Source: an uncultured Holophagaceae bacterium (lineage in GTDB: Bacteria > Acidobacteriota > Holophagae > Holophagales > Holophagaceae). From it: a stretch of DNA of 64,000 bases. The number at the start of each line of letters is the position of its first letter. The first letter of the stretch is position 1. The stretch lies in NCBI GenBank assembly GCA_903913215.1, contig CAIWKE010000020.1:1-64000 (forward strand). The letters are read 5' to 3'. The position numbers and the translations under genes were made by a program. The notes under the pieces were generated by a model, which made no database searches, was not told the DNA's origin, and worked only from the letters and a program-made list of their open reading frames with translations. Shown in pieces: positions 3,209-24,520 of the stretch.

Positions 3209-3219
3209 TTATTTGAGAT

Positions 3220-3233: not shown

Positions 3234-3236
3234 CAA

Positions 3237-3251: not shown

Positions 3252-3281
3252 TTCCGGCCTGACCGGGAAGGAAGGAAGCCC

Positions 3282-5113: not shown

Positions 5114-5117
<4 letters not shown>
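3282..5117 (+). CDS. edd: Phosphogluconate dehydratase (Entner-Doudoroff)
   Basis: The enzyme dehydrates 6-phosphogluconate to KDPG using a [4Fe-4S] cluster; it belongs to the IlvD/Edd family. Family segments seen are [17 protein letters not shown] near residues 107-123, [11 protein letters not shown] near 151-161 and the C-terminal [23 protein letters not shown] region. The ATG at 3282 is chosen because a purine-rich AAGGAAG precedes it and it matches the usual N-terminus; the frame is open 69 bases further upstream but that part overlaps the operators. The product is 611 residues, normal for Edd. Its stop overlaps the eda start (ATGA), so the two are translationally coupled. Confidence 0.96.
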
Positions 5118-6812
<1,695 letters not shown>

Positions 6813-6835
6813 AACGGCAATCCCAGCCTCTGATT

Positions 6836-6905
6836 AACCGCAGAGGACGCAGGGGGCGCAGAGAAAAGAAGGTGTTTCTCTGCGCCCCCTGCGTCCTCTG
6901 CGGTT
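6836..6905. repeat. Perfect 31-bp inverted repeat (hairpin) after gap
   Basis: Arms at 6836-6866 and 6875-6905 are perfectly complementary over 31 bases, with an 8-base loop. The arms are purine/pyrimidine skewed, built around GCAGAGGACGCAGGGGGCGC. It lies between gap and the next gene on the same strand. There is no clear T-run after the right arm, so it is either a factor-independent stop without a tail, an mRNA-stabilising 3' structure, or a copy of a mobile or dispersed palindrome. Similar long perfect hairpins occur at 54468-54534 and, decayed, at 57870-57924. Confidence 0.85.
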
Positions 6906-6958
6906 GAGTCTTTTCTCGGGTGTTCCTCGATATGCTGAGATCACTCTCGGAGTCGCGC

Positions 6959-8431
6959 ATGTTCAAGCCCTTCCTGCTGCTGTCAGCTCTGGCTCTGGTG
7001 ACGATGGGGCTTCCAGCCCAGGCTCAGAGCCTGACAGTGTCCACCGCTGCGACGGAACTGCCCACGGGGGCGCGCTGGCTGCGGCACTTCAACGAGGATC
7101 TGCTCCCCTTCTGGAACTTGCCGGATGCCTGGGGCCAGCCCGAGGGCAACTTCCCCACCTTCCGGGGCAATGACGGACGGGCGGTGGACTGGGCCAAGCC
7201 CCCGGAGGAGCTTGCCGACGGCCCTGGCTGGATCAAGGCGGAGTTCGGCCGGGACTATGTGCGCATGAAGTCCCGCCAGACCTACTTCTACTGCGTGGCC
7301 TACCACCTCACGGGAGATCCCCGCATGTTGGAATTGGCCCGGGCTGGTGCGACCTTCATCCGCACGAAGGGCATCGACCCCAGTACGGGCAGCGCCGTCT
7401 CCTACTGGGAAAAGGGACTGCCCAAACCCGAGCTGCTGGCCCGCAGCAGCCAGGACCTGGCGTATGCGGAGTTGGGTCTGGCGATGTACTACTACCTCAC
7501 CCGGGATGAAACGGTGCTGCGCGACATCCAGAAGCTGAAGCAGCACATCTTCTCCCAATACTGGAACCCGGCCTGGAAGGGCCTGCGTTGGGTCGTGAAG
7601 GAAAACGCCGATCACGAAGAGCAGCGTCAGGAACTGGTGGCCCAACTGGACCAGGTCAACGCCTACCTGCTGCTGTTGACCCCCATCCTGCCACCCCGCG
7701 CGCGCAAGGCGTGGACCGTGGACCTGCAGCTTCTGGCTGAGGTGATGGTGAAGGACTATCACGAGGCGGACCGGCACCTATTCTGGGGCACCATCCACGA
7801 CGCCAAGCAAAAGCGCCTGGGCGCTCGGCACGTGGACTTCGGGCACACGGCCAAGGCCTACTGGATGCTGGAACGCATCGGCCTCCTCACCAAAGACCAG
7901 GCCTTGGTGGACCTGGCCACCACCGGCGCCGCCGCGGTACTGAAGCAGGCCTACCTGCCGGACTCGGGCACATGGGGTTCGCGCCTGCGCCCCGATGGCA
8001 GTGTGGACTCAGGCAAGGAGTGGTGGATCTATGCGGAGCTGGATCAGCTCAGCGCAACTCTGGCGCTGCGAGATCCAGCCAAAGCCGCGCCCCTTGGGCG
8101 CACCGCAGACTTCTGGTTCCGGCGCATGGTGGACCCCGTGGGCCACGAGGTCTGGGGCGGGGCCGGTGGTCCCGACTTCGAGCCCTACCAGGGCCCCAAG
8201 ATCCACCAATGGAAGAGTGGCTACCACTCCGCCGAGCACGCACTGGTGGGCTACCTTACGGCTCAGGCCCTGCACGGTGAGCCAGCCACCCTCTACTTCG
8301 CCCCACCCAGTGCCAAGGCTCTCCTGCGGCCCTACTTCTTCGAAGGCAAGGCCACCGTGCTCAGCACGGCACCGCTGCCAGGCTTTCCCGGCCATGTGAA
8401 GGTCCAAGCCAGCTTTACGGACCTGAAATAG
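6959..8431 (+). CDS. Secreted AGE-like / six-hairpin-type protein of unknown substrate
   Basis: The product is about 490 residues, with a hydrophobic signal peptide ending near AQA about residue 23 when started at the ATG at 6959; an in-frame ATG at 6920 would add 13 residues with no hydrophobic merit. The body resembles N-acylglucosamine 2-epimerase-like (alpha/alpha)6-barrel proteins, with repeated helical pairs and segments such as VDFGHTAKAYWMLERIG and GYHSAEHALVGYL. Known members isomerise sugars such as cellobiose, mannose or N-acylglucosamine in the cytoplasm, so an exported one is unusual. It is convergent with pullulanase, only 9 bases away, suggesting a role in carbohydrate use. Activity is not predicted with confidence. 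Confidence 0.7.
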   Translation: MFKPFLLLSALALVTMGLPAQAQSLTVSTAATELPTGARWLRHFNEDLLPFWNLPDAWGQPEGNFPTFRGNDGRAVDWAKPPEELADGPGWIKAEFGRDYVRMKSRQTYFYCVAYHLTGDPRMLELARAGATFIRTKGIDPSTGSAVSYWEKGLPKPELLARSSQDLAYAELGLAMYYYLTRDETVLRDIQKLKQHIFSQYWNPAWKGLRWVVKENADHEEQRQELVAQLDQVNAYLLLLTPILPPRARKAWTVDLQLLAEVMVKDYHEADRHLFWGTIHDAKQKRLGARHVDFGHTAKAYWMLERIGLLTKDQALVDLATTGAAAVLKQAYLPDSGTWGSRLRPDGSVDSGKEWWIYAELDQLSATLALRDPAKAAPLGRTADFWFRRMVDPVGHEVWGGAGGPDFEPYQGPKIHQWKSGYHSAEHALVGYLTAQALHGEPATLYFAPPSAKALLRPYFFEGKATVLSTAPLPGFPGHVKVQASFTDLK

Positions 8432-8440
8432 GGGTTCTGT

Positions 8441-10696
8441 TCAGGGCTTGCGCAGGATCGCAGAGGTGAAAGGTTGCAGGGTCACGGCGGTGCCGATCAC
8501 GGACACACCTGTGGGGGACGCGATGGAGGTGAGGCCCGCCTTGGCGCCATCAGCCAGTAGCGCCGCACCACCCAGGTCCACATCCGCAGTGAAGGTCTTG
8601 GCCGTAGCATCGGCATTGTGGAAGACATAGTAGGCGGTGAGATTCGTGGCCACGGCCTTGTAGCCGAAAGCCAGCGTGGTGGTGCCCACGCCTACAGGCG
8701 GGATGGCCGTGAGGTTGGCGGCGCGGTTAGCGTCCGGCAACCGGAACGCATCGGTACTCTTGCGGATGGCCGTGAGGCCCTGCACGTAGCTGTACAGCAG
8801 GTAGCCATTGCTGGTGGTAGCGTAGTTCGTGAAGTGGCCACTGATGGGGTCGCTGGAGTAGACATTGGCCCACTTCACCATGTTGATGGCATCCGAGGCG
8901 TTGTAGGAGTTGTCCACGAAGGAGCGGATGTTGTTGGACTTGGTATTGGCGTAGCCGCCGGTCGTCTCCTTGGTGCGGAACATCTCGTCACCCGCGTGGA
9001 TGAAGGCCAGTCCCTGGGAAGTCAGCAGCACCGCATAGCCCACCTGAGCCCGCTTCAGGATGACCCCGTCATCGTAGGCTGTCTTGGTGGCGTTGGTGGC
9101 CATGGCCAGCACATCATAGAGGCAGAGGTTGTCGTGGCAGGTGAGGTAGCTCACGACGTTGTTGGTAGAGCCGGGGGCGAAGGTGGGGCTGGTGTTGGTG
9201 GGCAGTCCGGCGATGTTGGCGAACAGGTTGGCAGGATTCTGGGCGGAGCCAGTCAGGAAGGCCGGTGCCCCGTCGTTGGGATAGCCGTTCTTGAAGATCT
9301 GCCGGTAACTGTCCGAGAACATGGCCACGTTGAGCCCCTTGAACTGGGCTGAGGCGCTCTGGTCCGCGCCCGCGATGGGATCGCCGTTGTAGTCCGTGGC
9401 ACCACCGCTGTAGAAGCCATTCCAGCCTTCGCCCAGGAAGACCACCTTGGGGTTGAGGGCCGCAGCCGCGGCATAGGCGTCCTTGACCGTCTGGGTGTCC
9501 AGAACCCCCATGAGGTCGAAGCGGAAGCCATCCACCTTGTACTCACTCACCCAGTGGACGATGGAGTCCATGATGAGCTTGCGGACCATCTTGGCCTCGG
9601 ACTTCACATCGCGGCTGCCGGCGCCGTTGTTGCTGGTGCTGCGATAGAGGTAGGACTGGAGGCCCGAGTCCCCCAGCACTGCGTTATTGGCCGTGTGGTT
9701 GTAGACCACGTCCAGGATGACGCCCATGCCCTGCTTGTGGATCTCGTTGACGAGGGTCTTTAGCTCATTGATCCGGGCCGTTGGGCTCGTTGGCGAGGCG
9801 GAGTACATGCCCGTGGGGGTGAAGTAGTTCTGGGGATCGTAGCCCCAGTTGTAGTTGGCCCCGGAGGTGATCCGCACATCCAGTTCCCGGGTGCCGATCT
9901 TGGTCTGGTCGTAGGTGTAGTTTTCGAGGGGGCAGAGCAGTTGCACGTGAGTGACGCCGAGCTTCTGGATGTGGGGCAGCAGGTCCACCAGGCCCTTGTA
10001 GGTGCCCCAAGTGTGGCCGGAGGCAAAGCCGGTCAATGCTGAATCCACGGTGAGGTCCCGTACGCCAGCCTCGTAAACGATGGCATCCCGGTTGCCACTG
10101 AAGGCATAGGGGCTCGCGGCGCCGCTGGCATCCTTCATGGCTGAGCCATCGAAGTAGTAGGAGCTACCCGCATAGGCGGTCCACCCGCTGTCTGGCCCGG
10201 TGCTCGCGGGGTTGACGATGGCCCCCTTGCCGATGGTGTCGCCGCTGATGGTGGCGCCGTTGGCGTGAACCCACTGGGCCATGGACTTGGCGTAGGGATC
10301 CAGGACGAATTCGCCACCCACTTTGTAGACGTAGAAATTCTGGCTGGGCAGGGCCACCGAGCCCGTGCTCCAGACGCCACCACTGCCGCGGGTCATGGCG
10401 AGGGTGCCGGCAGGGGCGCTCAGCGAATCGCTCCAGGCCGAATACAGGTTCACCGTGACGGAACTGGCGTTGGGGTTCCAGTAGTTGAAGGTCACATTGG
10501 CGCCGCTGACCAGAGCGCCCAAGGCCGTGCTGGGCACCTTGAAATACGCGGGGTCTGCCGGTGGGGTCGAGTTGGCGTCGGTGTCGATGTTGACGGCGGG
10601 AGGCGTGGGAGTGGAGCTGCTGCTGCCCCCTCCACCACCACAGCCAAGGAGGGCCAACATGCCTGCGCTCAGGGCAAAAATTGTAAATCGGGACAT
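8441..10696 (-). CDS. pulA: Pullulanase-type GH13 lipoprotein
   Basis: The enzyme cleaves alpha-1,6 bonds of pullulan and branched maltodextrin, probably anchored in the envelope. The ATG at 10696 follows AAGGAGGTGCGC; the earlier frame start adds nine residues without a ribosome site. A signal peptide ends in the lipobox LLGC (Cys near 19), followed by a Gly/Ser linker. An N-terminal CBM48-like domain lies near 55-140. The catalytic GH13 domain shows the type I pullulanase mark YNWGYDP near 282, DVVYNH near 329, the nucleophile Asp in GFRFD near 394, the acid Glu in FLGEGW near 423 and TCHDN near 525. It is the last gene of the maltodextrin operon. Confidence 0.93.
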   Translation of the reverse strand: MSRFTIFALSAGMLALLGCGGGGGSSSSTPTPPAVNIDTDANSTPPADPAYFKVPSTALGALVSGANVTFNYWNPNASSVTVNLYSAWSDSLSAPAGTLAMTRGSGGVWSTGSVALPSQNFYVYKVGGEFVLDPYAKSMAQWVHANGATISGDTIGKGAIVNPASTGPDSGWTAYAGSSYYFDGSAMKDASGAASPYAFSGNRDAIVYEAGVRDLTVDSALTGFASGHTWGTYKGLVDLLPHIQKLGVTHVQLLCPLENYTYDQTKIGTRELDVRITSGANYNWGYDPQNYFTPTGMYSASPTSPTARINELKTLVNEIHKQGMGVILDVVYNHTANNAVLGDSGLQSYLYRSTSNNGAGSRDVKSEAKMVRKLIMDSIVHWVSEYKVDGFRFDLMGVLDTQTVKDAYAAAAALNPKVVFLGEGWNGFYSGGATDYNGDPIAGADQSASAQFKGLNVAMFSDSYRQIFKNGYPNDGAPAFLTGSAQNPANLFANIAGLPTNTSPTFAPGSTNNVVSYLTCHDNLCLYDVLAMATNATKTAYDDGVILKRAQVGYAVLLTSQGLAFIHAGDEMFRTKETTGGYANTKSNNIRSFVDNSYNASDAINMVKWANVYSSDPISGHFTNYATTSNGYLLYSYVQGLTAIRKSTDAFRLPDANRAANLTAIPPVGVGTTTLAFGYKAVATNLTAYYVFHNADATAKTFTADVDLGGAALLADGAKAGLTSIASPTGVSVIGTAVTLQPFTSAILRKP

Positions 10697-10733
10697 GCGC
10701 ACCTCCTTGGTAGGTCGATTCACAGCGGGGTGA

Positions 10734-12386
10734 TTACCGGGCGCTGCGCTTGTACATCCGGGTGTAGTACTCCTCCAGCATGCGCTGGACGCCGAAGGCC
10801 TCCCGGGTGCTGCGGATGGATTCCACCATCATGTCCACCCAGGCCTCGTGGCGGTCGTAGTAGGTGGGCAGCACTTCCTCCGCCAGCACCTTCTTGAAGG
10901 CCTTGAAGTCGTGCTTGTCGAGGACCGCTTCATCCTCACTTTCGAAGCCGTCGCCGAACTGCCAACCATTCACACCGTGATTACAGGCCTCGGGCCACCA
11001 GCCGTCCAGGATTGACAGGTTCAGAGATCCGTTCATCGCGGCCTTCATGCCGGAAGTGCCAGAGGCCTCCTTGGGACGGCGCGGATTGTTGAGCCACACG
11101 TCAGAACCCCGGGTGAGCATGCGTCCAATCTCCATGTCGTAATTCTCCAGGAACACGACGCTGTTCGGGTACCGCTTGGTCATGTCGAGAATGTTTTCGA
11201 CGATCTTCTTGCCGTTGTCATCCAACGGGTGGGCCTTGCCGGAGAACACGATCTGCAACTTGCCGCTCTTGAGGAGGGGCTCGATGAACTTGCGGTCCGT
11301 GAAGATGAAGTTGGAGCGCTTGTAGGGGGCGGCCCGGCGGGAGAAGCCGATGAGCAGCTTGTCTGCATCCAGCTTCACGCCCGTACGGCCCTCCACGAAC
11401 TGGATGAGCTTCTTCTTGTTGTCCATGTGCGCCTTCCAGAGCGCGTCCTTGGCCTTCTTGGAACCGGCACAGACCGCGCCCAGATCCAGCATGCGCGGGT
11501 CCACCCATGTGGGGAGGTGGATGGCGTTGGTGATGCCGATGATCTCACTGCGTCCTGAGATGTTCTTCCACATCTTGTTGGAGGTGACCCGGTGCAGGTC
11601 CGCCACGGCGTTGGAGATGCGGGACAACCGAAGGGCGCCCACCGTCATATTGAAGGGGCTGCCGCCCAGCTGTTTGAGCTGGGCCTTGGTCAGGCCCAGG
11701 TTGGCGCCGAGATACATGAAGCGGTCGATGGGGTGAGACTCATTGCCCTGCACGATGGGCGTGTGGGTGGTGAAGACCACCTCCTCCCGGGTCTTGGCCC
11801 AGGCGGCCTCGAAGGTGGCGCCCTTGGCCATGCGCTGGTGGATCAATTCGAAGCCCGCAAAGAGCGCGTGTCCTTCGTTGAAGTGATAGACATCTGGCTT
11901 GATGCGCAGGGCCTGCAGGGCCCGGACGCCGCCAATGCCCAGCACCATCTCCTGCGCCACCCGCTCCTCACCGAACCAGCCGTAGAGCTGCCCAGTAATC
12001 CACCGAGATTCGCCGTCATTCTCTTGGATATCCGTGTCCAGCAGGTAGAGAGAGTCCACGCCAAAGGAATTCACGCGCCAGACCTTGATCTTCACGGGCT
12101 TGCCCTTGATCTCGATCTCCACCAGGACGCCCGTATCCTCAAGGAACTCGTGGTCGCCGCTCTTGTAGGCGTCATAGACCTTGCCGGTCCCGGCATCCAC
12201 CATCTGTTCGCCGTAGCCCTGCTTCCAGCGGATGCCGATGCCCACCAGGGGGTAGCTGTGGTCCTTCACACCCTTGAGGTAGTCTCCGGCGAGAATGCCG
12301 AGGCCCCCCGCGTAGATCTTGAAGGGGCTGTCGAGGGCGTATTCCATGCAGAAATACGCGACCTTGGGCAGTTTCTTGGTGGACAT
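10734..12386 (-). CDS. glgP: Alpha-glucan (maltodextrin) phosphorylase, GT35 short form
   Basis: The enzyme phosphorolyses alpha-1,4-glucan to glucose-1-phosphate using PLP, in the cytoplasm. The 550-residue protein is the short bacterial/archaeal type. Recognisable segments are the N-terminal AYFCMEYAL, YAGGLGILAGDYLK, TTHTPIVQGNE, the SRRAAPYKR sugar/phosphate segment and the PLP-site EASGTSGMKAAMNG. The ATG at 12386 follows GAAGGAGCCTCC and is preferred to an upstream in-frame start at 12419. It sits between malS-like amylase and pullulanase, consistent with intracellular breakdown of imported dextrin. Confidence 0.94.
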   Translation of the reverse strand: MSTKKLPKVAYFCMEYALDSPFKIYAGGLGILAGDYLKGVKDHSYPLVGIGIRWKQGYGEQMVDAGTGKVYDAYKSGDHEFLEDTGVLVEIEIKGKPVKIKVWRVNSFGVDSLYLLDTDIQENDGESRWITGQLYGWFGEERVAQEMVLGIGGVRALQALRIKPDVYHFNEGHALFAGFELIHQRMAKGATFEAAWAKTREEVVFTTHTPIVQGNESHPIDRFMYLGANLGLTKAQLKQLGGSPFNMTVGALRLSRISNAVADLHRVTSNKMWKNISGRSEIIGITNAIHLPTWVDPRMLDLGAVCAGSKKAKDALWKAHMDNKKKLIQFVEGRTGVKLDADKLLIGFSRRAAPYKRSNFIFTDRKFIEPLLKSGKLQIVFSGKAHPLDDNGKKIVENILDMTKRYPNSVVFLENYDMEIGRMLTRGSDVWLNNPRRPKEASGTSGMKAAMNGSLNLSILDGWWPEACNHGVNGWQFGDGFESEDEAVLDKHDFKAFKKVLAEEVLPTYYDRHEAWVDMMVESIRSTREAFGVQRMLEEYYTRMYKRSAR

Positions 12387-12455
12387 GGAGGCTCCTTCGT
12401 CGTGGGCACTGCTCCCCATTCCTGTAGAACGGGGAGTTTGAAAATGATCTCGAAA

Positions 12456-14159
12456 CTAGGGTTTGATGCGCTCTAGGAGGACGTAGCCATCGGCCTGGAG
12501 GCTGACCTTCCCGGCCGCCACGGTGGCAGAGCGGCCGGTGTAGGCGTCCTGGAGGGTCTCCCCGTCGGCAAAGGCGCCGGCGACGGTGAGGTTCACGGGG
12601 CCCTTGGCGCCCATGGCCACAACCACCCGGTCACCACTGACGGGTTCGATGCGGCTGAAGGTGTAGGGGGCCTCGCTCAGTTGCTTGTGCTCGCCATTGG
12701 CCAGGGCCCGGTGACGGGACCGGAAGGTGCCCAGCTTCCGCCAGTGCTCCAGAACCTTGGTGTTGGGGCTGGACCAGTTCATATCCGAACGGGTGGCCTG
12801 CTGCTTGTCCGTGCGAGGTGCGATGCCTTCGGGGCGGGCGGTCTCGTCACCGTAGAAGATCTGCACGCCGCCGGGAGCCAGCAGGAGGGCGGCGCCAGCC
12901 TCAATGAGGTGACTGCGGTCCAGCAGCTCGGTGTCGTGGGAGGAGATGTAGTTCAGCATGTGCACGGACTTGCCGGCCTGGGCCTGGGCATAGCTGCGGA
13001 AGAGCTTCTCGGGCTTGGTGAAACCCTCCTCCTGCTGCTGGAAGTCGAAGTTGATCATGGCGTCGAAGCCGGAATCGATCAGCTTGCTCCGCGTGGGGCC
13101 CACGCCCCAGTACTCGCCCACCATCCAGAAGGGCGCGTCATCCACCTTGCGGGTGGGGTTCTTGGCCTTGAACTCTGCCAAGGCCTTCAGGCCTTCGGCC
13201 TTCAGGGCCACCCAGGCCTCAGGCTCCACGTGCTTCACGGTATCGGCCCGGAAGCCGTCGATGCCGTAGTCGCGGACCCACTGGGTGAGCCAGTTGATGA
13301 GGTAGCCCCGCACGGTGGTGTTGGGCAGATCCACGGCCTTGGTGTCCGCCTTGGCCTTCAGGAACTTCGGCAGCGTTACGAACTCCGTGCTCTCCGTGCG
13401 GAAGTCCGGCAGGTAGGCCAGCTGCATGGTGAGGTCGTCACGACCTCCATCCATGTAGCCCGGCAGGCCAGCGCGCACCCAGGGACGGCCCCACCAGTCC
13501 AGGAACTTGAACGAGTTGTAGTCGATGTAGTTGTGGTAGTTCCGCAGGAGGTTGGCGTCTTTCTCGGAATCGGGCCACAGGATGTCGATCTTAAAATCTT
13601 TGGCAGTCTGGATGTCCAGGTAGCCGGGGTGGTTCATGACGATATCGAAGAGGACCCGGATGCCCTGGCCATGGGCTGTGTCCACAAACTCCCGCAGCTC
13701 CTCGGGAGTGCCCATGTTCTGGTCCAACACTGTGTAGTCCAGGGCGTAGTAGCCGTGGTAGGCGTAGTGTTTGAACTCCTTCTGGCCGCCCTGCACCCAG
13801 CCATGGATCTGCTCGTAGGGTGCCGTGATCCAGATGGCATTCACACCGAGCTGCTGGAACCAGCCTTCCTTGAGCTTAAGGGTCAGGCCTTTGAGATCGC
13901 CGCCATGGAAGGTGCCCACGTCATCCTTGGGCGCTTGTTCCCGCTGCCGCCCATAGGCGTGGTCATTGGCGGGGTTGCCGTTGTAGAACCGATCCGTCAC
14001 CACGAAGTAGACGATGGGGTTTTCGGCGAAGGTGCCGGGCACGGCGACGGGCTTGGGGGCCGCCACGGGTGCCTGGGCCCAGGTGGAGAGGCTGGCCGCG
14101 AGAAGGCCCGCGGCCAGGCAGATGGCGCGGAGGGGTTTGGTGAAACAGGCATGGGGCAT
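12456..14159 (-). CDS. malS: Periplasmic alpha-amylase, MalS-like GH13
   Basis: This secreted endo-amylase cleaves maltodextrins. A signal peptide covers about the first 29 residues, ending at WAQA. The GH13 barrel carries segments strongly reminiscent of Escherichia coli MalS (GH13 subfamily 19): FHGGDLKGL, the APYEQIHGWV stretch and HYAYHGYYALDYT. Catalytic residues are the nucleophile Asp in GFRADTVKH, the acid Glu in WMVGEYWG and the Asp in YISSHDTE. GGAG lies seven bases before the ATG. The 567-residue length is shorter than E. coli MalS, which has extra N-terminal modules. Confidence 0.92.
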   Translation of the reverse strand: MPHACFTKPLRAICLAAGLLAASLSTWAQAPVAAPKPVAVPGTFAENPIVYFVVTDRFYNGNPANDHAYGRQREQAPKDDVGTFHGGDLKGLTLKLKEGWFQQLGVNAIWITAPYEQIHGWVQGGQKEFKHYAYHGYYALDYTVLDQNMGTPEELREFVDTAHGQGIRVLFDIVMNHPGYLDIQTAKDFKIDILWPDSEKDANLLRNYHNYIDYNSFKFLDWWGRPWVRAGLPGYMDGGRDDLTMQLAYLPDFRTESTEFVTLPKFLKAKADTKAVDLPNTTVRGYLINWLTQWVRDYGIDGFRADTVKHVEPEAWVALKAEGLKALAEFKAKNPTRKVDDAPFWMVGEYWGVGPTRSKLIDSGFDAMINFDFQQQEEGFTKPEKLFRSYAQAQAGKSVHMLNYISSHDTELLDRSHLIEAGAALLLAPGGVQIFYGDETARPEGIAPRTDKQQATRSDMNWSSPNTKVLEHWRKLGTFRSRHRALANGEHKQLSEAPYTFSRIEPVSGDRVVVAMGAKGPVNLTVAGAFADGETLQDAYTGRSATVAAGKVSLQADGYVLLERIKP

Positions 14160-14195
14160 TGACAGACTCCGCGGTGATTCAGACCAGGTACTGCA

Positions 14196-14224
14196 CCGCC
14201 CCAGGGGCAGGGCCCCTGGGGCGG
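14196..14224. terminator. Strong GC hairpin between CBM41 gene and malS-like gene
   Basis: Arms at 14196-14208 and 14212-14224 pair perfectly over 13 bases, with a 3-base loop. It lies inside the operon, 9 bases after the stop of the CBM41 gene, and has no T-run on either side. It may partly terminate or stabilise the upstream mRNA, so that distal genes are expressed less. Function is inferred. Confidence 0.6.
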
Positions 14225-14233
14225 CTCAAACAA

Positions 14234-14665
14234 TTACTTCTTGCAGACGTGGTCCTTCAGGGCCTCTTCCTTGGAGAAGTAGATGGCGCGGTCGTTGGTG
14301 ACGACCCAGATGGCCTTGTGGGCATTGCCGTCAAAGGCCATATCCTTGGCGCCCTGCTCCTTGATGTCACCCTTGTGGATGATGTAGTTCACCTGGGCCT
14401 TGGAGCCGGTCTTGAACTCCTCCAGGTCCGCGTGCCAGTAGACGCCAAAGTCGTTGGTGCCCGTGGGCTTCATGGGATTGGGCCATTCGATGTCGGGCAA
14501 GGGCATGTTGGGGCTCTTCCAGAGATGCACACCCCACTTGTCGTACTTGCCATCGCAACGGTGGTAGTTGATCTCGATCTTCCCTTCCGGCGGGGCGGCC
14601 AGGGCAGGCGAGATGGCGAGAGCGATCACGGCGATCGCCTTGAGGAAGGTCTTGCAGAGGCTCAT
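14234..14665 (-). CDS. Secreted stand-alone CBM41 (pullulanase-associated) carbohydrate-binding protein
   Basis: The 143-residue protein has a signal peptide ending near ALA at residue 23 and then one domain resembling CBM41/PUD: IEINYHRCDGKYDKWGVHLW near 29-48, NYIIHKGDIKEQG near 93-105 and KAIWVVTNDRAIYFS near 116-130. In known enzymes this domain is an N-terminal starch-binding part of pullulanases and has no catalytic activity. Here it is alone, between malG and the malS-like amylase, with a good ribosome site (CAGGAG). The pullulanase of this operon lacks a visible CBM41 at its N-terminus, so the binding module may act in trans. Two cysteines remain in the mature protein. Confidence 0.83.
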   Translation of the reverse strand: MSLCKTFLKAIAVIALAISPALAAPPEGKIEINYHRCDGKYDKWGVHLWKSPNMPLPDIEWPNPMKPTGTNDFGVYWHADLEEFKTGSKAQVNYIIHKGDIKEQGAKDMAFDGNAHKAIWVVTNDRAIYFSKEEALKDHVCKK

Positions 14666-14716: not shown

Positions 14717-15607
14717 TCAGCCCTTGTTGGCGCCGGAGGTGAGGCCGGAGATCATCCACCGTTGGGCGAGGATGAACACGGCGGAGATGGGCAGGCCGGA
14801 CAGGATGGCCGCCGCGGCGAAGTCGCCCCAGAGGTACTTCTGGGCGTAGAGGAACTGTTTGGAACCCACGGCCAAGGTCAGGTTCGGCTGGGTCCGCAGC
14901 AGCACGGAGGCCTGGGGGTACTCGATGATGGCGCCGATGAAGGCCAGCAGGAACACCACCACCAGGATGGGCAGGGACATGGGCAGGAGCACCCGCCAGA
15001 AAGCCTGCCAGGGCGTGGCGCCATCCACGATGGCCGCCTCCTCGATCTCCACGGGGATGGTTTCGTAGAAGCCCTTGATGGTCCAAACATGCAGGGCGAT
15101 GCCGCCCGAGTAGGCCAGCACCAGGGCCCAGTGGCTGTCGATACCCAGGAGGGGGAAGGCGTGGCCGATGCGGGAGAAGATCGCGTGGATGGCAATAAGC
15201 GCCAGGATTGTGGGGAACATCTGCATGAGCGTGAGCCCCAGCAGAGCGGACTTCTTGCCCACGAAGCGCATGCGGGCGAAGGCATAGGCGGCCGTTGTGG
15301 AAAGGAAGAGTGCCACCGTGGCGGAAGCCGTGGCCACCTTCACGGAGTTCCAGAGCCAGCGCAGCACGGGCAGATCCGGGGTGATCATCTGCCCGTCGGG
15401 TCCCGGGGTCGGGATGCCCAGGGCGAAGCGCCAGTGCTCCAGGCTGATGGTCTCGGGGATGAGGCTGCCGGTGGCAAAGTTGCCCGGGCGGAGTGAAATG
15501 GCCACCACGATCAGGAGCGGGAAGATGACCAGGGCACAGAGGCCGATCATAAACACATGGGCCGCGACCACGCGCCAGCGCTGGGATTTGTCGATGACGA
15601 TCGCCAT
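14717..15607 (-). CDS. malG: Maltose/maltodextrin ABC transporter permease MalG
   Basis: This is the second membrane subunit of the MalEFGK importer. The 296-residue protein has about six membrane segments and the EAA loop EEAAIVDGATPWQAFWRVLLP near 187-207 that contacts MalK. GAGGAGG precedes the ATG at 15607. Only 11 bases separate it from malF, so the two are co-translated. The N-terminal basic segment and first hydrophobic helix are of normal family type. Confidence 0.95.
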   Translation of the reverse strand: MAIVIDKSQRWRVVAAHVFMIGLCALVIFPLLIVVAISLRPGNFATGSLIPETISLEHWRFALGIPTPGPDGQMITPDLPVLRWLWNSVKVATASATVALFLSTTAAYAFARMRFVGKKSALLGLTLMQMFPTILALIAIHAIFSRIGHAFPLLGIDSHWALVLAYSGGIALHVWTIKGFYETIPVEIEEAAIVDGATPWQAFWRVLLPMSLPILVVVFLLAFIGAIIEYPQASVLLRTQPNLTLAVGSKQFLYAQKYLWGDFAAAAILSGLPISAVFILAQRWMISGLTSGANKG

Positions 15608-15618
15608 GCTTGTCCTCC

Positions 15619-17148
15619 TCAGCGCCTGTCGTCTTGGGTGATGTTGGTGGCCCGGATCTGGATGATGGAGATGACCGCCACCATGAGGAAGATCACCGCC
15701 GAGATGGCCGCGGCCAAACCGAACTGCTGTCCCGAATCCTCGAAGGCGATGCGGTAGGTGTAGGTGGCCAGAAGGTCCGTGGTGCCTGCGGGGAGGCTGG
15801 TGTTCAGGATGTCGGGCCGGCCTCCGGTGAGCAGGTTGATGAGGACGAAGTTGTTGAAGTTGAAGGCAAAGGACGAGATGAGCAGGGGCGTCAGGGGCCT
15901 GATCACCAAGGGCAGGGTGATCTTGAAGAAGTTGGTGAGAGGCCCCGCTCCCGCCACGGCCGAGGCCTCGTAGAGGTCTGGCGGGATGGCCTTGATGAGG
16001 CCCATGCAGACCACCATCATGTAGGGGAAACCCAGCCAGGTGTTGACGATCAGGATCATGGTCTTGGCCAGGAAGGGATCTGAGAACCAGGAGGGCTTTA
16101 ACCCGAAGAGGCCGTGGAGGATCAGGTTGATCTCACCAAAATTGGCGTTGAAGAGGCCCTTGAAGACCAGGATGGAGATGAAGCCTGGGATGGCGTAGGG
16201 CAGGAAGAGCATGAGCCGATAGACGCTGCGAAAACGGAGAGCCTCCCAATTCAGGAGCACCGCCAGCACCATGCCCAGACTCACGGTGAACAGCACCGAC
16301 AGGAAGGCGAAGGTCACGGTCCAGACGAAGATCTGCAGGAAGGGTTCCCGGATGGCCGCGTCGGTGAAGATGCTGAAGTAGTGTTTCCAGCCGATATCCA
16401 CCTGGAAACCTGGATCCACCGGATCCCCTGAGGGTGTCTCATAGAAGCCGGTTTTCATGTTCGGGCGCAGGAGGCTGCCGTCCTGATGGTTGGTGAGGCT
16501 GCCGTCAGGGTTCCGGGTGTACTGCTGCTTCGACGGTGCGAACTCCCGCAGGCCCGTCATGCGCACTTGGTTCCCGTCAGGCATCTTCACGGTGATGCCC
16601 TTGAGAAAGGCCTGCTGCTCGATGAGGTCCTTCATGGGCATCTCGTCGCCCATGAGGGGGATTCCCAAGGGTTCGGCCTTGATCGTGATGGGCTTCTCGG
16701 GGCCCAGGGTGATGGGTTCGCTGACGAAGACTTTGCCGCTCTCGGCATCTTCCAGACGCAGGCGCCACCGGCGCCCATCCGCGTGCAACTCCGAGGTGTA
16801 GGTCGCTCCCTCGCCCCGGTAGGTCTCTTCCAGGAGGTACTGGGTGGACCGTTGGAAATTGAGCAGGTTCTTGGAGCTGTAGTTCGAGAACCCAATGCGG
16901 ATGGTGTAGAGCATGGGGAAGACGACAAAGATCAGGGCCGCACCGATTCCAGGAAACAGGTAACGATAGGCGTAGGTCTTCGAGGAGGTGTAGATCCAGA
17001 GGAAGCAGGCCAAGGTGACCAGCATGATGCCGGCCAGCAGGCTTTCCCCAGTGGCGTAGACCTGAGTCACCACCAAGAGCCCCGCCAGGCCCACGAGGAT
17101 CATGAGGACGGGGTGCAGGAAACGTTGCAGGACCTTGGGCATGCGCAT
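15619..17148 (-). CDS. malF: Maltose/maltodextrin ABC transporter permease MalF
   Basis: This is the first membrane subunit of the MalEFGK importer. The 509-residue length and the large hydrophilic region near residues 90-260, between early and later membrane segments, match the enterobacterial MalF type with a big periplasmic P2 loop that contacts the binding protein. The EAA loop EASAVAGAGPLTNFFKITLP lies near 395-415. Two ATGs (17148 and 17142) are possible; neither has a strong ribosome site, so reduced translation relative to malE is likely. A strong hairpin lies between malE and this gene. Confidence 0.95.
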   Translation of the reverse strand: MRMPKVLQRFLHPVLMILVGLAGLLVVTQVYATGESLLAGIMLVTLACFLWIYTSSKTYAYRYLFPGIGAALIFVVFPMLYTIRIGFSNYSSKNLLNFQRSTQYLLEETYRGEGATYTSELHADGRRWRLRLEDAESGKVFVSEPITLGPEKPITIKAEPLGIPLMGDEMPMKDLIEQQAFLKGITVKMPDGNQVRMTGLREFAPSKQQYTRNPDGSLTNHQDGSLLRPNMKTGFYETPSGDPVDPGFQVDIGWKHYFSIFTDAAIREPFLQIFVWTVTFAFLSVLFTVSLGMVLAVLLNWEALRFRSVYRLMLFLPYAIPGFISILVFKGLFNANFGEINLILHGLFGLKPSWFSDPFLAKTMILIVNTWLGFPYMMVVCMGLIKAIPPDLYEASAVAGAGPLTNFFKITLPLVIRPLTPLLISSFAFNFNNFVLINLLTGGRPDILNTSLPAGTTDLLATYTYRIAFEDSGQQFGLAAAISAVIFLMVAVISIIQIRATNITQDDRR

Positions 17149-17179
17149 GGGGTGATCCAGTACTCGAGTCGGGGATATC

Positions 17180-17219
17180 CCGGCGGGCGGGACGGGCCAT
17201 CAGGCCCGCCCCGCGCCGG
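17180..17219. terminator. GC-rich hairpin between malE and malF
   Basis: A long, nearly perfect stem forms from about 17180-17198 and 17203-17219 with an ATCA/TGAT loop and a small bulge. It begins 10 bases downstream of the malE stop (on the minus strand) and has no T-run. In E. coli a REP element in the same malE-malF gap keeps the binding protein in excess over the permease; a comparable effect is inferred here. Confidence 0.7.
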
Positions 17220-17228
17220 TAGGTGCTG

Positions 17229-18434
<1,206 letters not shown>

Positions 18435-18486
18435 GTCAGTCTCCTTTTGCGTGGCCCGCAGGCCCAGTGGAACGGTTGGAAGGCGC

Positions 18487-19584
18487 CTAGGCGATCCGTG
18501 GGAGGGTCCGGTCATCCGCGCCGAAGAGGTAGCAGCGCTGTGCCGGGAAACAGAGATGGGCCTCGTCGCCCATGTGGAGGGGATCCTCGGGTTGGGCCTT
18601 CACCGTCAACTGCCCAGCGCCGCCCGGCGAATCCACGTAGAGGAAGACCGTGTCGCCCAAGTGCTCGGCTACGCGCACCGCCGTGCGGGCCCGGCCCTCG
18701 CCGCCGGTGCGGGAGGCCTCCAGGTGCTCAGGACGGATGCCCAGGATCAGCGCCGCGCCGACCGCCTGCCCCGTGGCATCTACCGCCACGGCCACAAGGG
18801 TGCCGTCTTCCAACCGGACCGTGGCCCCGGTGGGCGCAGCCGCGACCAGGGTGCAGGGCAGGAAGTTCATCTTGGGCGAACCCATGAAGCCCGCCACGAA
18901 GCGGTTGATGGGCGCGTTGTAGAGCTCGAGCGGCGCTCCCACCTGCTCGATGCGGCCCTGGTTCAGCACCACGATGCGGTTGGCCAGGGTCATGGCCTCC
19001 ACCTGGTCGTGGGTAACGTAGACCATGGTGGTGCGAAGGTCCGCGTGGAGCCGAGCCAGTTCGACACGCATCTGGACGCGCAAGCCTGCGTCCAGGTTGG
19101 ATAGGGGCTCGTCAAAGAGAAAAACGCCGGGCTTTCTGACGATGGCCCTGCCGATCGCCACCCGCTGACGCTGCCCCCCCGACAGCGCCTTCGGACGTCG
19201 ATCTAACAGAGCTTCGATCTGGAGGATCTGGGCGGCCTTTTGGACCGCGTCCGCCACCTCCACCTTCGAATGCCCGGCGAGCTTGAGACCGAAGGCCATG
19301 TTTTCGGCCACGGTCATATGGGGATAGAGGGCATAGCTCTGGAAGACCATGGCGATGCCCCGCTTGGAGGGGGGAATGTCGTTCATGGGTACGCCGCCAA
19401 TGAGCAGTTCCCCGCTGGTGATCTCCTCCAGGCCCGCGATGCAGCGCAGGAGGGTGGACTTGCCGCACCCCGAAGGGCCCACGAAGACGATGAACTCCCC
19501 GTCCTGGATCTCCAAGTCGACGCCATGGAGAATCTCCATGTCACCGAAGGACTTGCGCAGCGCTTTGAATTGGAGGTTGGCCAT
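18487..19584 (-). CDS. malK: Maltodextrin ABC transporter ATP-binding protein MalK
   Basis: The ATPase of the MalEFGK importer. The 365-residue protein has Walker [10 protein letters not shown] at 36-44, signature [14 protein letters not shown] near 134, Walker [13 protein letters not shown] near 154, the H-loop VTHDQVEAM near 190 and a C-terminal OB/TOBE regulatory domain from about 235, as in MalK/UgpC/MsmK. It may also energise other sugar porters. The ribosome site is weak. It lies upstream of malE in the operon, unlike E. coli, where malK is divergent. Confidence 0.94.
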
Positions 19585-19637: not shown

Positions 19638-21326
19638 TCAGGGCAGGTCGCCATGGAGGGTGGTCTGGAAGCCGGTGCCCGCCAGGTAGAGCACGCGCAC
19701 ACCAAAGGGAGGGATCGCGGTCGCAGTATAGGCGTCCCCGGCCAGGGCCGACACACCCTTGAGGTCACCCAGGACGGCCTGGACAGGGGCCCCGGCTGCA
19801 ACGCCCTTGCTGCTGAGCCCGGGGACCACCACGGTCTGGGCCGCGGCACTGAGGTTGGCCACCACCAGTACCCGCTCGGTGCCCGCAGAACGGAGGTAGG
19901 CCAGGGCCTTGCTGGGGCCGACATCTGTGGTCAGGGTCTGGTAGGCACCGCGCAGGGCGGGGTAGGCCTTGCGGGCCTGGATGAGGTAGCGGCACCAGCT
20001 AAGGATCGATTCGGAATCCGTGGTCTGAGCGCTCACGGCCCCCCAGTCCATGGCCTTGCGCAGGTTCAGGTCGGTGCCCGAGGCGCCGAGCATGCCCACT
20101 TCGTTGCCGTAGTAGATGATGGGCGTACCTGGGGAGAGGAGGTTCAGGGCTTCGGCCAGGATGATCTTGGGCTTGCTGGCGGCGTACTGAGTCCCGGGCC
20201 TTGAGATCAGGTTGTCGTGGTTGGAATCGAAGGAGGCCGCCCGGTACCCACTGGGGTAGGTGGCCTGCTCCAATTCCCAGAGAGAACTCAACTGAGTGGC
20301 GTCCCCTTTGCTGATGGCGTTGTAGGTGGCCCAGGGGGCGCTGAAGTCCAGGGCCATGTGGAACTCGTTGTGGCCGTTGCCGTAATAAGGCGCCACGCCG
20401 GAGGCATCGTTGGTCCAGGCTTCGGCGATCATGACCTTGGCGCTGTGCTTGGCCAGGTCACCGCCCGGATGGGGATGGAGATCCCCGGTGTTGTATTCGT
20501 CCAGGAGGGCGCGGAAGCCCTGCAACTGGGTGTGGGTGTCCGGCTGATCCGCCTGTTGGCCGGGGCCGGTCTCACAGAGGTAGCGCACGGCGTCCACGCG
20601 CATGCCATCAAAGCCCCGGTCGAGCCAGTAACTCTGGACCTTGCGCATTTCAGACTGCACCGCCGGGTTGTACCAGTTCAGATCCGCCAGGCTGTTGGTG
20701 TTGAAGGAGGTGTAGAAGTAGCCGGAGGTCCCGCTCATCCAGACATCCGAGGGCGTACCGCCCCCCCAGGGCAGACCCCAACCCGCAGGCTGGTTCGGCT
20801 TCCAGATGTACCAACTGTCCCGCGTCGCAGACTGGGTGAACCAGACGTGCTGGGTGGATGTGTGGTTAGGGACATAGTCGAAGAGGATCCGCATGCCCCG
20901 GGCATGGACCGCATCGATGAGGGATTTCAAGTCCGCCTTGGTGCCAAAGCGATCGTTCACGGCGTAGTAATCCGTGGTGTCGTACCCGTGCATGTTGTCG
21001 CCCTTGTAGGCGCACTCGAAGACGGGGGAGAGCCACAGGGTGGTCACACCGAGGTTCTGAAGGTAGTCCAGCTTGGACTGGAGTCCGGGCAGATCACCGA
21101 TGCCGTCGTTGTAGACGCCATCCGCGAAAGCCCGGACCCAGACCTGGTAGATCACCGCGTCGTTGTACCAGCCGGGAGCGTTCTCCAACTGCTGGCCGGG
21201 CGCGATTGTCGTCGCATCCGTAGGGTAGTGGAAGCTGCTGGCATCCGCCTTGGGCCCACTGCAGCCCAGCCCGGCCACCAGGAGGGAGGCCAGCAGGGTG
21301 GTGCCGAGAGCCGAGTGGAGTTTCAC
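19638..21326 (-). CDS. GH13 alpha-amylase-type lipoprotein
   Basis: This is a second exported GH13 hydrolase. It starts at a GTG at 21326 preceded by AAGGA. The signal peptide ends in the lipobox GLGC (Cys near 22), so it is probably membrane-anchored. The barrel contains [29 protein letters not shown], the nucleophile Asp in GMRVDAVRY, the acid Glu in MIAEAWTND and FDSNHDN. The sequence looks like the amylase/maltogenic group that acts on short dextrins rather than the MalS group. It sits between lamB and malK; substrate specificity cannot be read from the sequence. Confidence 0.9.
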
Positions 21327-21356
21327 AGCTTGTCCTTTATGACTTCAGCCAGGAAG

Positions 21357-21380
21357 CGGCCCGTCCCGGAGGACGGGCCG
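21357..21380. terminator. Hairpin after lamB
   Basis: Arms at 21357-21366 and 21371-21380 pair perfectly over ten GC-rich bases with a four-base loop, 16 bases beyond the lamB stop on the minus strand. There is no T-run. Partial termination or 3' protection would raise porin output relative to the downstream genes. Function is inferred from position. Confidence 0.6.
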
Positions 21381-21396
21381 TTCTGTCAGGCAGCTC

Positions 21397-22761
21397 TTAC
21401 CACCAGGCCTCAACCTGGGCGCCGAAGGTCATGCCCTGCATGGCGGTGCCGAACTGGCCTTCACCCACCTTGTTCCAGTTGTTGGCGTTCTTGTTCCAGT
21501 CCGCGCGGGTGGCGAAGAGGCGGATGACCGGGCGGCTCCAGAAGGAGGCCTGGGGGCTCCACTGCAGGGCCACGGTGTTCTTGAGCAGCTTGCGGGACTC
21601 GGTCTCGTTGTCAAACTTCAGCTGATCGAGGCCGATCTCGTAGGCCACGCTGAAGTGCTTGGTGAAGAAGTAGACGGGACGGACACCGGCAGAGGTCCAG
21701 GCATTGGTGTTCCCCTTCATGCTGCCCTTGCCGTCCTGCTTGCGGTACTGGACGGTGCCTTGCATTTCGAGGTTGGCCATGGGCTTGATGTAGAAGACAT
21801 CCATGACCTGCCACCAGGTGTTCTCAGTCTTCACATCGGGGTTGTACCAGTTCCAGAAGGTGGAACCATTGCCGTAGGTGGCATAGACGCGGTTGTCGCC
21901 GCCCATGAAGCCAGCCTGGTTGATGATGACGTTGAACTGGGTGCCCTTGTTGTCGTTGGAACCAACAACCGCCGTGCCGCTCTTGTTGCTGGCGTCGTTG
22001 TACTGGATGCCGAGGATCAAAGACCCGCCCGACCAGGGAAGCTTGATGTCAGAGAGGCGCAGATCGTGGGAGCCCACGATGTTGTGGCCGGCCCCGCCCA
22101 CCCACTGGCTGTAGGGATTGACCGCGCCTGCGATGGCGCCGTTGTTCCAGTTGCTGCTGATGTTGCCCGTGTCGTGCTGGATGTAGGCGTAGTGCAGCTT
22201 GGCGCCGCCCAGGTCGATGTTCTCGATGCCCACGCCGTCGCCGCTGTTGTTCCAGTACCACTGATCGCGCATGTGCAGGTCCTGGCGCATGTAGAAGCGG
22301 CGGCCAGCCCAGAGGGAGGCATCCTTGAACGCGCCCGTGGTGCCGAAGATGCCCGTGGCCTCGCCCCAGGCTTCCCGGATCCAGATCTGCTGGTTGGGGT
22401 TCGCGAGCTTGCTGTTGTCCACATTGCCGCCAGCGTCGGTGGACGCGTCACGCACCTGGTAGTACTCGCGGAAGGCGGGGCGGAAGTGCAGCTTGAAGCT
22501 GGTGGTGCCCTTTTCGTAGGCGCGCACATCGACGGCCAACTCAAGATAGTTGTCGGTCTCGTTGCCGAGACGGTAGCCGGGGCCGCCGGTGGGGCTGCCA
22601 CCGGTGTTGGCGAGGAAGAAGGAGACCTGCTCGCCGCCGTTGGAGGAGCGGCCGACGCCGGCGCGCGTGTAGCCGTGGATTTCGACGACGTCCTGGGCGA
22701 GGAGCGGCCCGCAGACCAGCGCCAGGGGGAGCGCGGCCTTGATGAGGGAGAAGGACTTCAT
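21397..22761 (-). CDS. lamB: Maltoporin (LamB family)
   Basis: This outer-membrane 18-strand beta-barrel admits maltodextrins. The ATG at 22761 has GGAGG nine bases upstream and gives a signal peptide of about 22 residues ending LLA-Q; the longer frame from 22905 has no export signal at its start. LamB-type segments are IHGYTRAGVGRS at the mature N-terminus, WAGRRFYMRQDLHMRDQWYWNNSGDGVGIE near 180-210 and a C-terminal aromatic pair for Bam recognition. The mature length (about 430) is normal. It is the second gene of the maltodextrin operon. Confidence 0.95.
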   Translation of the reverse strand: MKSFSLIKAALPLALVCGPLLAQDVVEIHGYTRAGVGRSSNGGEQVSFFLANTGGSPTGGPGYRLGNETDNYLELAVDVRAYEKGTTSFKLHFRPAFREYYQVRDASTDAGGNVDNSKLANPNQQIWIREAWGEATGIFGTTGAFKDASLWAGRRFYMRQDLHMRDQWYWNNSGDGVGIENIDLGGAKLHYAYIQHDTGNISSNWNNGAIAGAVNPYSQWVGGAGHNIVGSHDLRLSDIKLPWSGGSLILGIQYNDASNKSGTAVVGSNDNKGTQFNVIINQAGFMGGDNRVYATYGNGSTFWNWYNPDVKTENTWWQVMDVFYIKPMANLEMQGTVQYRKQDGKGSMKGNTNAWTSAGVRPVYFFTKHFSVAYEIGLDQLKFDNETESRKLLKNTVALQWSPQASFWSRPVIRLFATRADWNKNANNWNKVGEGQFGTAMQGMTFGAQVEAWW

Positions 22762-22834
22762 GGTCTTGCCTCCAGAGAGAGGAGCCGCTGAGCGGCAGGT
22801 TGGGGGGTTGGGTTCAGGAACAGGCGCATGGTCG

Positions 22835-24520
22835 TCAGGCCAGGCGGCCAAAGAAGCCTCCCCAGGGGGGGAGGTGAAGCGTCCGGCCTTCGAGTCGGCC
22901 GGCATTGAGCCCGTGCCCCGCCATGGGCTGGACGGGTGCGGGAAGGGTGTACTGGATCTCTTGGGGACTCAGGTTGAAGGCTGCCAGGATCCGCTCGCCA
23001 TCGGCCTCCCGGCGCAGGGCCAGGATGGGCTCGGGGCTGCGGTAGAAGTGGATTGAGCCGGTGCGTAGTGCCGCAGAAGCCTTCCGCCAGGCCAGGAACT
23101 GCTGGTAGAAGTGCAGCACGGAATCGGGGTTCAGGGCCTGGGTCGCCACGGCACGGCTCAGGTGGTCCGGGTACATGGGCAGCCAGGGTTCCACGGTCGA
23201 GAAGCCGCCCCAGGGCTGTTCCGCGGTCCAGGGCATCGGGGTCCGGCAACCATCCCGACCCTTGAAGTCCGGCCAGAAGGTTATTCCGTAGGGATCGATG
23301 AGGCGGTCATAGGGGACTTCGGCCTGGGGAAGGGCCAGTTCCTCGCCCTGGTAGATGCAGAAGCTGCCCCGGAGGGAACCCAACACAGCCACCAGCAGCT
23401 TGGCAAAGGCGGGGTCGTCGATGCCCTTGCCCCAGCGGGTGACGACCCGCACGCAGTCATGGTTGGAGAGGGACCAGCAGCCCCAGCCGCCGCCGGGCCG
23501 GATCAATCGCTCATAGTCCTGCACCACGGAGCGGATCCGGGCGGCGCTGAACTCCTCCGTGAAAAGGCTGAAGCCGTAGGCCATGTGGAGCTTGTCGCCA
23601 TCGGCGGTGTACTCGGCCATGGTGGCCAGGGCCCCTTCGTCACCCACCTCGCCCACACTCATGACGCCGTACTGGTCCATGAGACTGCGGAGCCGCTTCA
23701 GGAAGGGCAGGTTCTCGGGCCTGCTCTTGTCGTAGCGGTGAATCTGGCAGCCGTAGGGGTTGCCCTCCTGCACGGTGGACAGCTCCAGCTTGTTGTAGCG
23801 GGCGGGGGGATTGTTGCGGAGCTTCCGGTCGTGGAAGTGGAAGTTGCAGGCGTCGAAGCGGAAGCCATCCACGCCACGCTTCATCCAGAAGGCGACCTCC
23901 TCCAGCACCTGGGCCTGCACCGCTTCATGGTGGAAGTTGAGGTCCGGCTGGGACTCCAGGAAGTTGTGCATGAAGTACTGGCGACGACGGGGCTCCCAGG
24001 ACCAGGCGGAGCCACCAAAGACCGACTGCCAGTTGTTGGGGGGCGTTCCGTCCGGCCGGGCCTCCGCCCAGACATACCAGTCCGCCTTGGGATTGGTCCG
24101 GTTGGTGCGGCTCTCCTTGAACCAGGCGTGCTGATCCGAAGAGTGGGACAGCACCTGGTCGATGAGCACCTTGAGCCCCAGGCGGTGGGCCTCGGCGACC
24201 AGCTGGTCGAAGTCCGCCAAGGTGCCGAAGGTCGGGTCCACATCCCGGTAGTTCGACACGTCGTAGCCGAAGTCCTTCATGGGCGAGGTGAAGAAGGGCG
24301 AGATCCAGATGGCGTCCACACCCAGGTCCGCCACATAGGGCAGGTGGGCAGTAATGCCGGGCAGATCCCCCACGCCATCGCCGTTCGTGTCTTGAAAGCT
24401 TCTAGGGTAAATCTGGTAGATGGCCGCGCCGCGCCACCACTCCGGGGCAGACTGCACAGGAGTCGACCCGCCCGGGGCAGGCGTGACTTGGGGGCTGTCG
24501 GAGGCGAGCAAGGGCGACAT
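22835..24520 (-). CDS. Alpha-glucosidase, GH13 oligo-1,6/alpha-1,4 type
   Basis: This cytoplasmic enzyme releases glucose from maltose or maltodextrin. The 561-residue protein has no signal peptide. It carries IYQIYPRSFQDTNGDGVGDLPG near 34-55, DQVLSHSSDQHAWF, the nucleophile Asp in DGFRFDACN, the acid Glu in MSVGEVGDE and SNHDCVRV. These fit the alpha-glucosidase group (GH13 subfamily 23 or close) rather than amylases. It is the first gene of the operon. The ATG at 24520 has only a weak AGGT upstream. A perfect LacI-type operator lies 69 bases upstream of the start. Confidence 0.91.
   Translation of the reverse strand: MSPLLASDSPQVTPAPGGSTPVQSAPEWWRGAAIYQIYPRSFQDTNGDGVGDLPGITAHLPYVADLGVDAIWISPFFTSPMKDFGYDVSNYRDVDPTFGTLADFDQLVAEAHRLGLKVLIDQVLSHSSDQHAWFKESRTNRTNPKADWYVWAEARPDGTPPNNWQSVFGGSAWSWEPRRRQYFMHNFLESQPDLNFHHEAVQAQVLEEVAFWMKRGVDGFRFDACNFHFHDRKLRNNPPARYNKLELSTVQEGNPYGCQIHRYDKSRPENLPFLKRLRSLMDQYGVMSVGEVGDEGALATMAEYTADGDKLHMAYGFSLFTEEFSAARIRSVVQDYERLIRPGGGWGCWSLSNHDCVRVVTRWGKGIDDPAFAKLLVAVLGSLRGSFCIYQGEELALPQAEVPYDRLIDPYGITFWPDFKGRDGCRTPMPWTAEQPWGGFSTVEPWLPMYPDHLSRAVATQALNPDSVLHFYQQFLAWRKASAALRTGSIHFYRSPEPILALRREADGERILAAFNLSPQEIQYTLPAPVQPMAGHGLNAGRLEGRTLHLPPWGGFFGRLA

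Follow-up and report, generated by a model that had tools for sequence, protein, structure and literature searches.

The window is the whole 64,000-nucleotide stretch of DNA from an uncultured Holophagaceae bacterium that was analysed here. It carries a maltodextrin operon on its minus strand, with the gene order lamB, GH13 lipoprotein, malK, malE, malF, malG, CBM41, MalS-like amylase, phosphorylase and pullulanase. The gene of interest encodes a free CBM41 protein and lies within this lamB-to-pullulanase run, as the preliminary description of the locus had it, 51 nt from malG and 74 nt from the amylase gene. In gene order the features are:

21397..22905, minus strand: LamB-type maltoporin
19638..21326, minus strand: GH13 enzyme with a lipoprotein-type signal (LGC, by eye)
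18487..19584, minus strand: MalK ATPase
17229..18515, minus strand: MalE maltodextrin-binding protein (NF007011, 502 bits; start codon not settled)
15619..17148, minus strand: MalF permease with P2 domain
14717..15607, minus strand: MalG permease, directly upstream of CBM41
14234..14665, minus strand: free CBM41 (PUD) protein, 143 aa, with ATG start, Sec-type signal peptide at about residues 1-23 (by eye), domain at residues 30-129, Cys37 and Cys141
14160..14233, minus strand: 74-nt gap 3' of CBM41, containing a GC-rich hairpin of 14 bp without a T run
12456..14159, minus strand: MalS-like (GH13_19-type) exported amylase
10734..12419, minus strand: alpha-glucan phosphorylase (TIGR02094)
8441..10723, minus strand: pullulanase (CBM48, GH13, SpuA_C; lipoprotein-type signal by eye)

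No member of the SusC or SusD families was found by Pfam among the ten operon proteins; the operon has a LamB porin and an ABC importer instead. Among solved structures, the amylase is related to a maltohexaose-producing enzyme (9us5, 479 bits) and to E. coli MalS (8im8, 449 bits), and its alignment to the latter begins only at MalS residue 187. Compared with the domain limits in the MalS paper (PMC10223318), this places the amylase without domain N (residues 1-119) and without the first half of domain C. According to the same source, domain N is a predicted CBM69, presumed to bind polysaccharide and thought to give MalS its affinity for glycogen and amylopectin.

Strong GC-rich hairpins without a T run follow CBM41 (window 14160-14233), malE (17149-17228) and lamB (21327-21396). 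In the 17 of 20 Holophagaceae loci used for this count, stems of at least nine pairs occur within 70 nt downstream of LamB (11/15), MalE (9/16), CBM41 (11/17) and the amylase (9/17), and after none of the genes for the GH13 lipoprotein (0/14), MalK (0/16), MalF (0/17), MalG (0/17), the phosphorylase (0/16) or the pullulanase (0/15). The pattern is weak in Burkholderiales (LamB 5/15, MalE 3/18, CBM41 4/18, MalF 1/18, amylase 1/11). Hairpin-type tuning of mRNA amounts is known from the E. coli malE-malF gap and, by analogy, the hairpins of this operon may do the same. We have left them out as evidence on the role of CBM41, because the pattern is confounded by gap lengths and is also seen after the amylase gene. 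Sites resembling promoters or terminators occurred no more often than in shuffled sequences. Beside the operon, on the plus strand (3213-8431), are putative homologues of edd, eda and gap, together with a gene for an AGE-like epimerase; at several Burkholderiales loci, too, gap is found close to the mal operon.

Family and fold of the 143-residue protein

CBM41 domains bind starch and are as a rule found within enzymes that cut it. The 143-residue protein is a CBM41 by profile and by fold, which bears out the family assignment made earlier from the sequence. The Pfam profile PF03714 (PUD) matches with E 1.7e-20 and 74.1 bits against a cut-off of 25, and the match spans residues 30-129 of the protein and positions 2-96 of the 97 in the profile, hence the whole domain. 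The only other Pfam row, at E up to 0.1, is a zinc finger below cut-off. In a phmmer search of PDB sequences, the CBM41-bearing chains of streptococcal, Bacillus-type and T. maritima pullulanases match at 3.5e-8 to 7e-5.

An AlphaFold model built from 14 aligned sequences (pLDDT 82.5, pTM 0.76) tells the same story. Each of its best nine Foldseek matches is either a CBM41 chain or a pullulanase with such a domain, with 2j43 at 1.8e-7. In a VIA comparison the model aligns with 11 CBM41-type entries at Z 12.3 to 10.9, the best having rmsd 2.8 over 108 aligned residues, and the next family is CBM25 at Z 8.9. The entry 6az5 of E. rectale Amy13K, a chain labelled CBM41, scores only Z 7.9 and falls among CBM25/26.

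In profile, fold and an RxD...W...(H/Y/W)xW framework the protein resembles the CBM41 domains of T. maritima PulA (2j71), streptococcal SpuA/PulA (2j43, 2j44, 2ya1) and Klebsiella PulA (6j33). It differs from them in being free of any enzyme, in having its own signal peptide, in an often present Cys37-Cys141 pair and in K98 and Q104, which are invariant among the free copies. A carbohydrate-binding module in the strict CAZy sense is a module within a carbohydrate-active enzyme, and the protein falls outside this definition, since at the loci read it is a separate open reading frame with its own signal-like N-terminus and stop. The operon's pullulanase (8441-10723) had been described as lacking a CBM41. 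Its Pfam matches are indeed CBM_48, alpha-amylase and SpuA_C, with no PUD at E up to 0.1, and the free protein is the single PUD protein of the window's genome assembly (95% complete).

Gene neighbourhoods in two phyla

A survey of neighbours in related genomes, suggested with the original observation, has now been run, and finds malG directly upstream of the free gene in two phyla. PUD is present in 20 of 77 Holophagaceae genomes, all of them within the 21 that have MalF (E 1e-60 or better). In the one MalF-positive genome without PUD (G400) the contig stops 107 bp past malG. All 20 loci were read and CBM41 directly follows malG in each; in one (G406) the gene is split by a contig end, with both halves where expected. 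The next gene is a MalS-like amylase at 18 of the 18 loci where the contig continues. Full-length copies are about 53-90% identical to the window protein, and two of the loci that keep CBM41 (L036, L059) have no lipoprotein GH13 gene between lamB and malK. In the window's genus, candidate fusions of CBM41 in frames of 388-800 aa were rejected; these are stop-to-stop frames in GC-rich DNA, within which the domain has its own ATG and signal-like stretch upstream and its own stop downstream.

In a wider sample of the phylum, PUD occurs in 21 of 396 genomes, 13 of them Holophagaceae with the free form. The other eight belong to another family and have two or three copies each, in frames of 1158-1298 aa; at two of these loci (L043, L044) PUD lies beside a GH13 enzyme with 25% identity to the window's pullulanase. 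One scan for viral copies confirmed none.

A contig scan with the window protein, which sought query-like sequences and is hence biased to close kin, returned 26 loci, 14 from Holophagaceae and 12 from Burkholderiales (54-64% identity). The latter come from Rubrivivax, Caldimonas, Sphaerotilus, Piscinibacter, Albitalea, Rhizobacter and a Burkholderiaceae genome, and all 12 copies are free proteins encoded directly after malG. Searching a sample of the order with the Pfam profile gave PUD in 17 of 399 genomes (16 above cut-off), ten of which have the free gene after malG; nine of these were newly read (47-59% identity) and the tenth is G438, the same locus as L080. Altogether the free gene directly follows malG at 21 of the 22 Burkholderiales places read, with about 47-64% identity overall. 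The exception, L127:8098-8607 (plus strand) in G557, is an additional free CBM41 with no mal genes around it, whose neighbours include solute-binding-like proteins (by eye).

What lies beyond CBM41 is more variable in this order. Downstream of the 21 malG-linked copies there is a MalS-like amylase in 12 cases, the same one gene later in one, another GH13 enzyme in five, neither in two and a contig end in one, so that seven of the 20 loci with a continuing contig have no MalS-like amylase nearby. A homologue of the window's pullulanase was found at none of the 21 loci, in flanks of up to about 10 kb (downstream only 0.2 kb at L086 and 2 kb at L078).

The free gene is found with those operons that are closest to the window's own. 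MalF is present in 22 of the 399 order-sample genomes, a count in which at most three candidates were scored per genome, and only nine of the 22 have a free CBM41 after malG; the tenth sampled genome with a malG-linked copy (G782) has a contig that starts at malG. Twelve genomes have a MalF of at least 58% identity, and these comprise the nine with CBM41, two without (G522, G694) and one with a partial match (G558), which was not read. Below 58% the gene follows malG in none of ten genomes, four of which were read (L158-L161). At six Burkholderiales loci read without CBM41, what comes after malG is something else, or the amylase itself as at L157; three of them have a MalF of 56-60% identity (G522, G694, G466). 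Since many Burkholderiales mal operons do without it, the gene is an accessory and is not essential to the importer.

Burkholderiales with the free gene often have a second PUD in a long frame. Eight of the ten order-sample genomes with a malG-linked copy also have PUD in a frame of 1032-1222 aa, one of these frames with an in-frame TAG, and in another scan the free gene coexists with PUD in a frame of at least 764 aa in seven of ten Burkholderiales genomes. In G724 (L088/L131) the frame of a CBM41-pullulanase carries an in-frame TAG inside the domain. A sample of Pseudomonadota has PUD in 24 of 398 genomes, and in the 21 of these that lie outside the order sample all PUD domains are in frames of 1073-2047 aa, except two in G1197. 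The frames of these two (L137, L154) are 500 and 461 aa long, and have CBM41 followed by an apparent long coiled coil and a C-terminal transmembrane segment.

A different arrangement was seen in three Burkholderiales genomes, two of the 399 in the order sample and Albitalea terrae. Here CBM41 (79-85 bits) is preceded by a signal or transmembrane segment and followed by a transmembrane-like segment, GGDEF and EAL (L119:6799-8832, minus strand; L121:8426-10357, plus strand; L130:8154-10109, plus strand). These are presumed to be alpha-glucan-sensing c-di-GMP proteins.

Export, sequence constraint and origin

The N-terminus of the protein, MSLCKTFLKAIAVIALAISPALA/APP, reads by eye as a signal peptide of the Sec type, with a site of the AxA kind, in keeping with its earlier description as a free, exported protein. 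We aligned 41 free copies, 19 from Holophagaceae and 22 from Burkholderiales. None of the 41, the window protein included, has a lipobox pattern in its first 40 residues. A Tat-like stretch such as SKRNFLK is seen at the N-terminus of nine (L038, L118, L120, L122-L125, L128, L129). Cys37 and Cys141 occur together in 25 copies, are both missing from 16 and are never found alone, although these are related sequences and not 41 independent events. This covariation suggests a disulfide and therefore an oxidising compartment, which would fit the periplasm and would be compatible with the outside of the cell as well.

Cysteines aside, R36, D38, W44, H47, K98, K102, Q104 and D108 are invariant in all 41 copies, and W49 is kept in 40, with Phe in the other. 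The position of K98 has Lys in only five of 26 pullulanase-linked domains. The invariant residues, and the rarity of K98 in the enzyme-linked domains, indicate a constraint that is particular to the free proteins. In the T. maritima CBM41 a pair of Trp residues forms an aromatic binding platform. Of the two positions, the free copies keep one as W49. The other, the first Trp of the LWIW stretch, aligns with His47, which is His in 41 of the 41 free copies; among the pullulanase-linked domains this position is His in ten of 26 and Tyr in 16.

In a tree of 72 domain sequences the 19 Holophagaceae copies group as a single clade (100/99), nested in a set with 12 Burkholderiales copies (99/88). The remaining Burkholderiales free copies lie outside that set and their placement is unresolved in the tree, which has 116 columns and weak deep forks. 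The nesting suggests a transfer between phyla. A direction from Burkholderiales to Holophagaceae, together with the operon, would fit the tree, the direction being our inference. We also considered whether the free gene had split off from a pullulanase. This is not favoured, as the free gene and large-frame PUD coexist in Burkholderiales, and as the pullulanase-linked domains fall elsewhere in the tree than the free copies, within the limits of its 116 columns and weak deep forks.

Candidate roles in alpha-glucan uptake

The steadiest partner of the free gene is malG, the MalS-like amylase comes second, and the lipoproteins and pullulanase are not constant. A periplasmic glucan binder explains this best. 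On balance, we think it somewhat more likely than not that this soluble, exported protein, most probably located in the periplasm and with a predicted affinity for alpha-glucan, is an accessory of the MalEFGK importer and of the MalS-type amylase. Longer maltodextrins would enter through the LamB-type porin, and the CBM41 protein would bind the long ones and thereby keep them in the periplasm. The bound glucan would be held near MalE/MalFGK and near the amylase, which lacks the presumed glucan-binding N-domain of MalS, and would be fed onward to the amylase and to MalE. The alpha-glucan-binding role put forward at the outset fits the family and fold.

Several points count against the periplasmic binder: His in place of Trp at position 47, the malG-linked copy in only nine of the 22 MalF-positive order-sample genomes, the loci with no MalS-like amylase nearby, and the solitary copy L127. 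Furthermore, LamB would admit only short dextrins, which limits what a glucan binder in the periplasm could meet.

Among known mal proteins, E. coli MalM is a periplasmic protein of the malK-lamB-malM operon. Like it, the CBM41 protein is a small exported non-enzyme of a mal operon; unlike it, it has no MalM family match in the Pfam scan (E up to 0.1) and another gene position. The likeness to MalS, a periplasmic GH13_19 amylase with a presumed CBM69 N-domain (8im8; PMC10223318), is that the neighbouring amylase is MalS-like and that glucan binding and amylase would meet in the periplasm. The difference is that here a gene of its own, from a different CBM family, would supply the glucan binding.

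This leads to an explanation that comes close behind the periplasmic binder, in which CBM41 is the missing glucan-binding domain of the MalS-type amylase, bound as a subunit in trans. Among loci with a continuing contig, CBM41 immediately precedes the amylase gene at 18 of 18 in Holophagaceae and at 12 of the 20 malG-linked ones in Burkholderiales. A subunit in trans would account for this, and for an amylase without the domain that is thought to give MalS its affinity for glycogen and amylopectin. However, the seven loci with no MalS-like amylase nearby would leave the subunit without its enzyme, the amylase right behind malG at L157 does without CBM41, and the domain to be replaced is, in that same source, a predicted CBM69 and not a CBM41. 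Taken by itself we regard this explanation as unlikely.

The periplasmic binder is also to be weighed against action on the surface or outside the cell, the role first proposed for the protein. SusE and SusF of Bacteroides are non-catalytic, multi-domain, starch-binding surface lipoproteins encoded beside SusC/D. The CBM41 protein is likewise a non-catalytic, predicted starch-binding protein of a glucan operon, and could in the same manner catch starch and present it to the lipoprotein enzymes and the porin. In favour are its export, the presence of two lipoprotein-type GH13 enzymes and a LamB-type porin in the operon, and secretin-like matches in the genome. Unlike SusE and SusF, it has a single domain, no lipobox (0/41) and a place beside an ABC importer. 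The gene tracks malG and not the lipoproteins, being kept at L036 and L059, where the operon is without the lipoprotein GH13, and at the 21 Burkholderiales loci with no pullulanase homologue in the cluster. The GspD matches (195.7 and 152 bits) are below the curated cut-off of 351, so a type II system, of which GspD was the sole component sought, is not established in the window's genome. With no lipobox and variable lipoproteins, presentation at the surface is the weaker explanation and seems more doubtful still than a subunit of the amylase.

A glucan receptor that acts as an adaptor and reports to a sensor is improbable. CBM41 is the presumed periplasmic part of the GGDEF-EAL proteins, and two of the three genomes that have these (G557, G435) also have the free protein, but the window's genome has no other PUD protein and the free gene sits in a transport operon, not beside a sensor. 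Least credible of all is a relic of a pullulanase CBM41 that has lost glucan binding: His47 in place of a Trp and the many Burkholderiales mal operons without the gene would agree with it, but the full-length Holophagaceae copies retain about 53-90% identity, seven of the residues invariant in 41 copies (R36, D38, W44, H47, K98, K102, D108) argue against decay, the gene is in all 20 Holophagaceae operons with the position covered, and most of the sampled Burkholderiales genomes with a malG-linked copy have the large-frame domain as well.

The import of maltose and maltodextrin is textbook knowledge, with MalE as the one well-known sugar-binding protein of the periplasm. In the literature searched, no title or abstract was found to describe a free CBM41 in a mal operon or a CBM41 with GGDEF, which is a weak negative as most subscription journals were outside the search. 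A broader idea, which we offer tentatively, is that CBM41 has come into use outside enzymes as a general receptor domain for alpha-glucan, both as a second soluble binder for MalEFGK that moved between phyla with the operon and as the periplasmic sensor of GGDEF-EAL proteins. If true, a second binder tied to malG would add a step between porin and importer, and it would be an example of a starch-binding domain at work without an attached enzyme. In view of the CBM41-GGDEF-EAL proteins, the same domain may also serve some bacteria for sensing starch.
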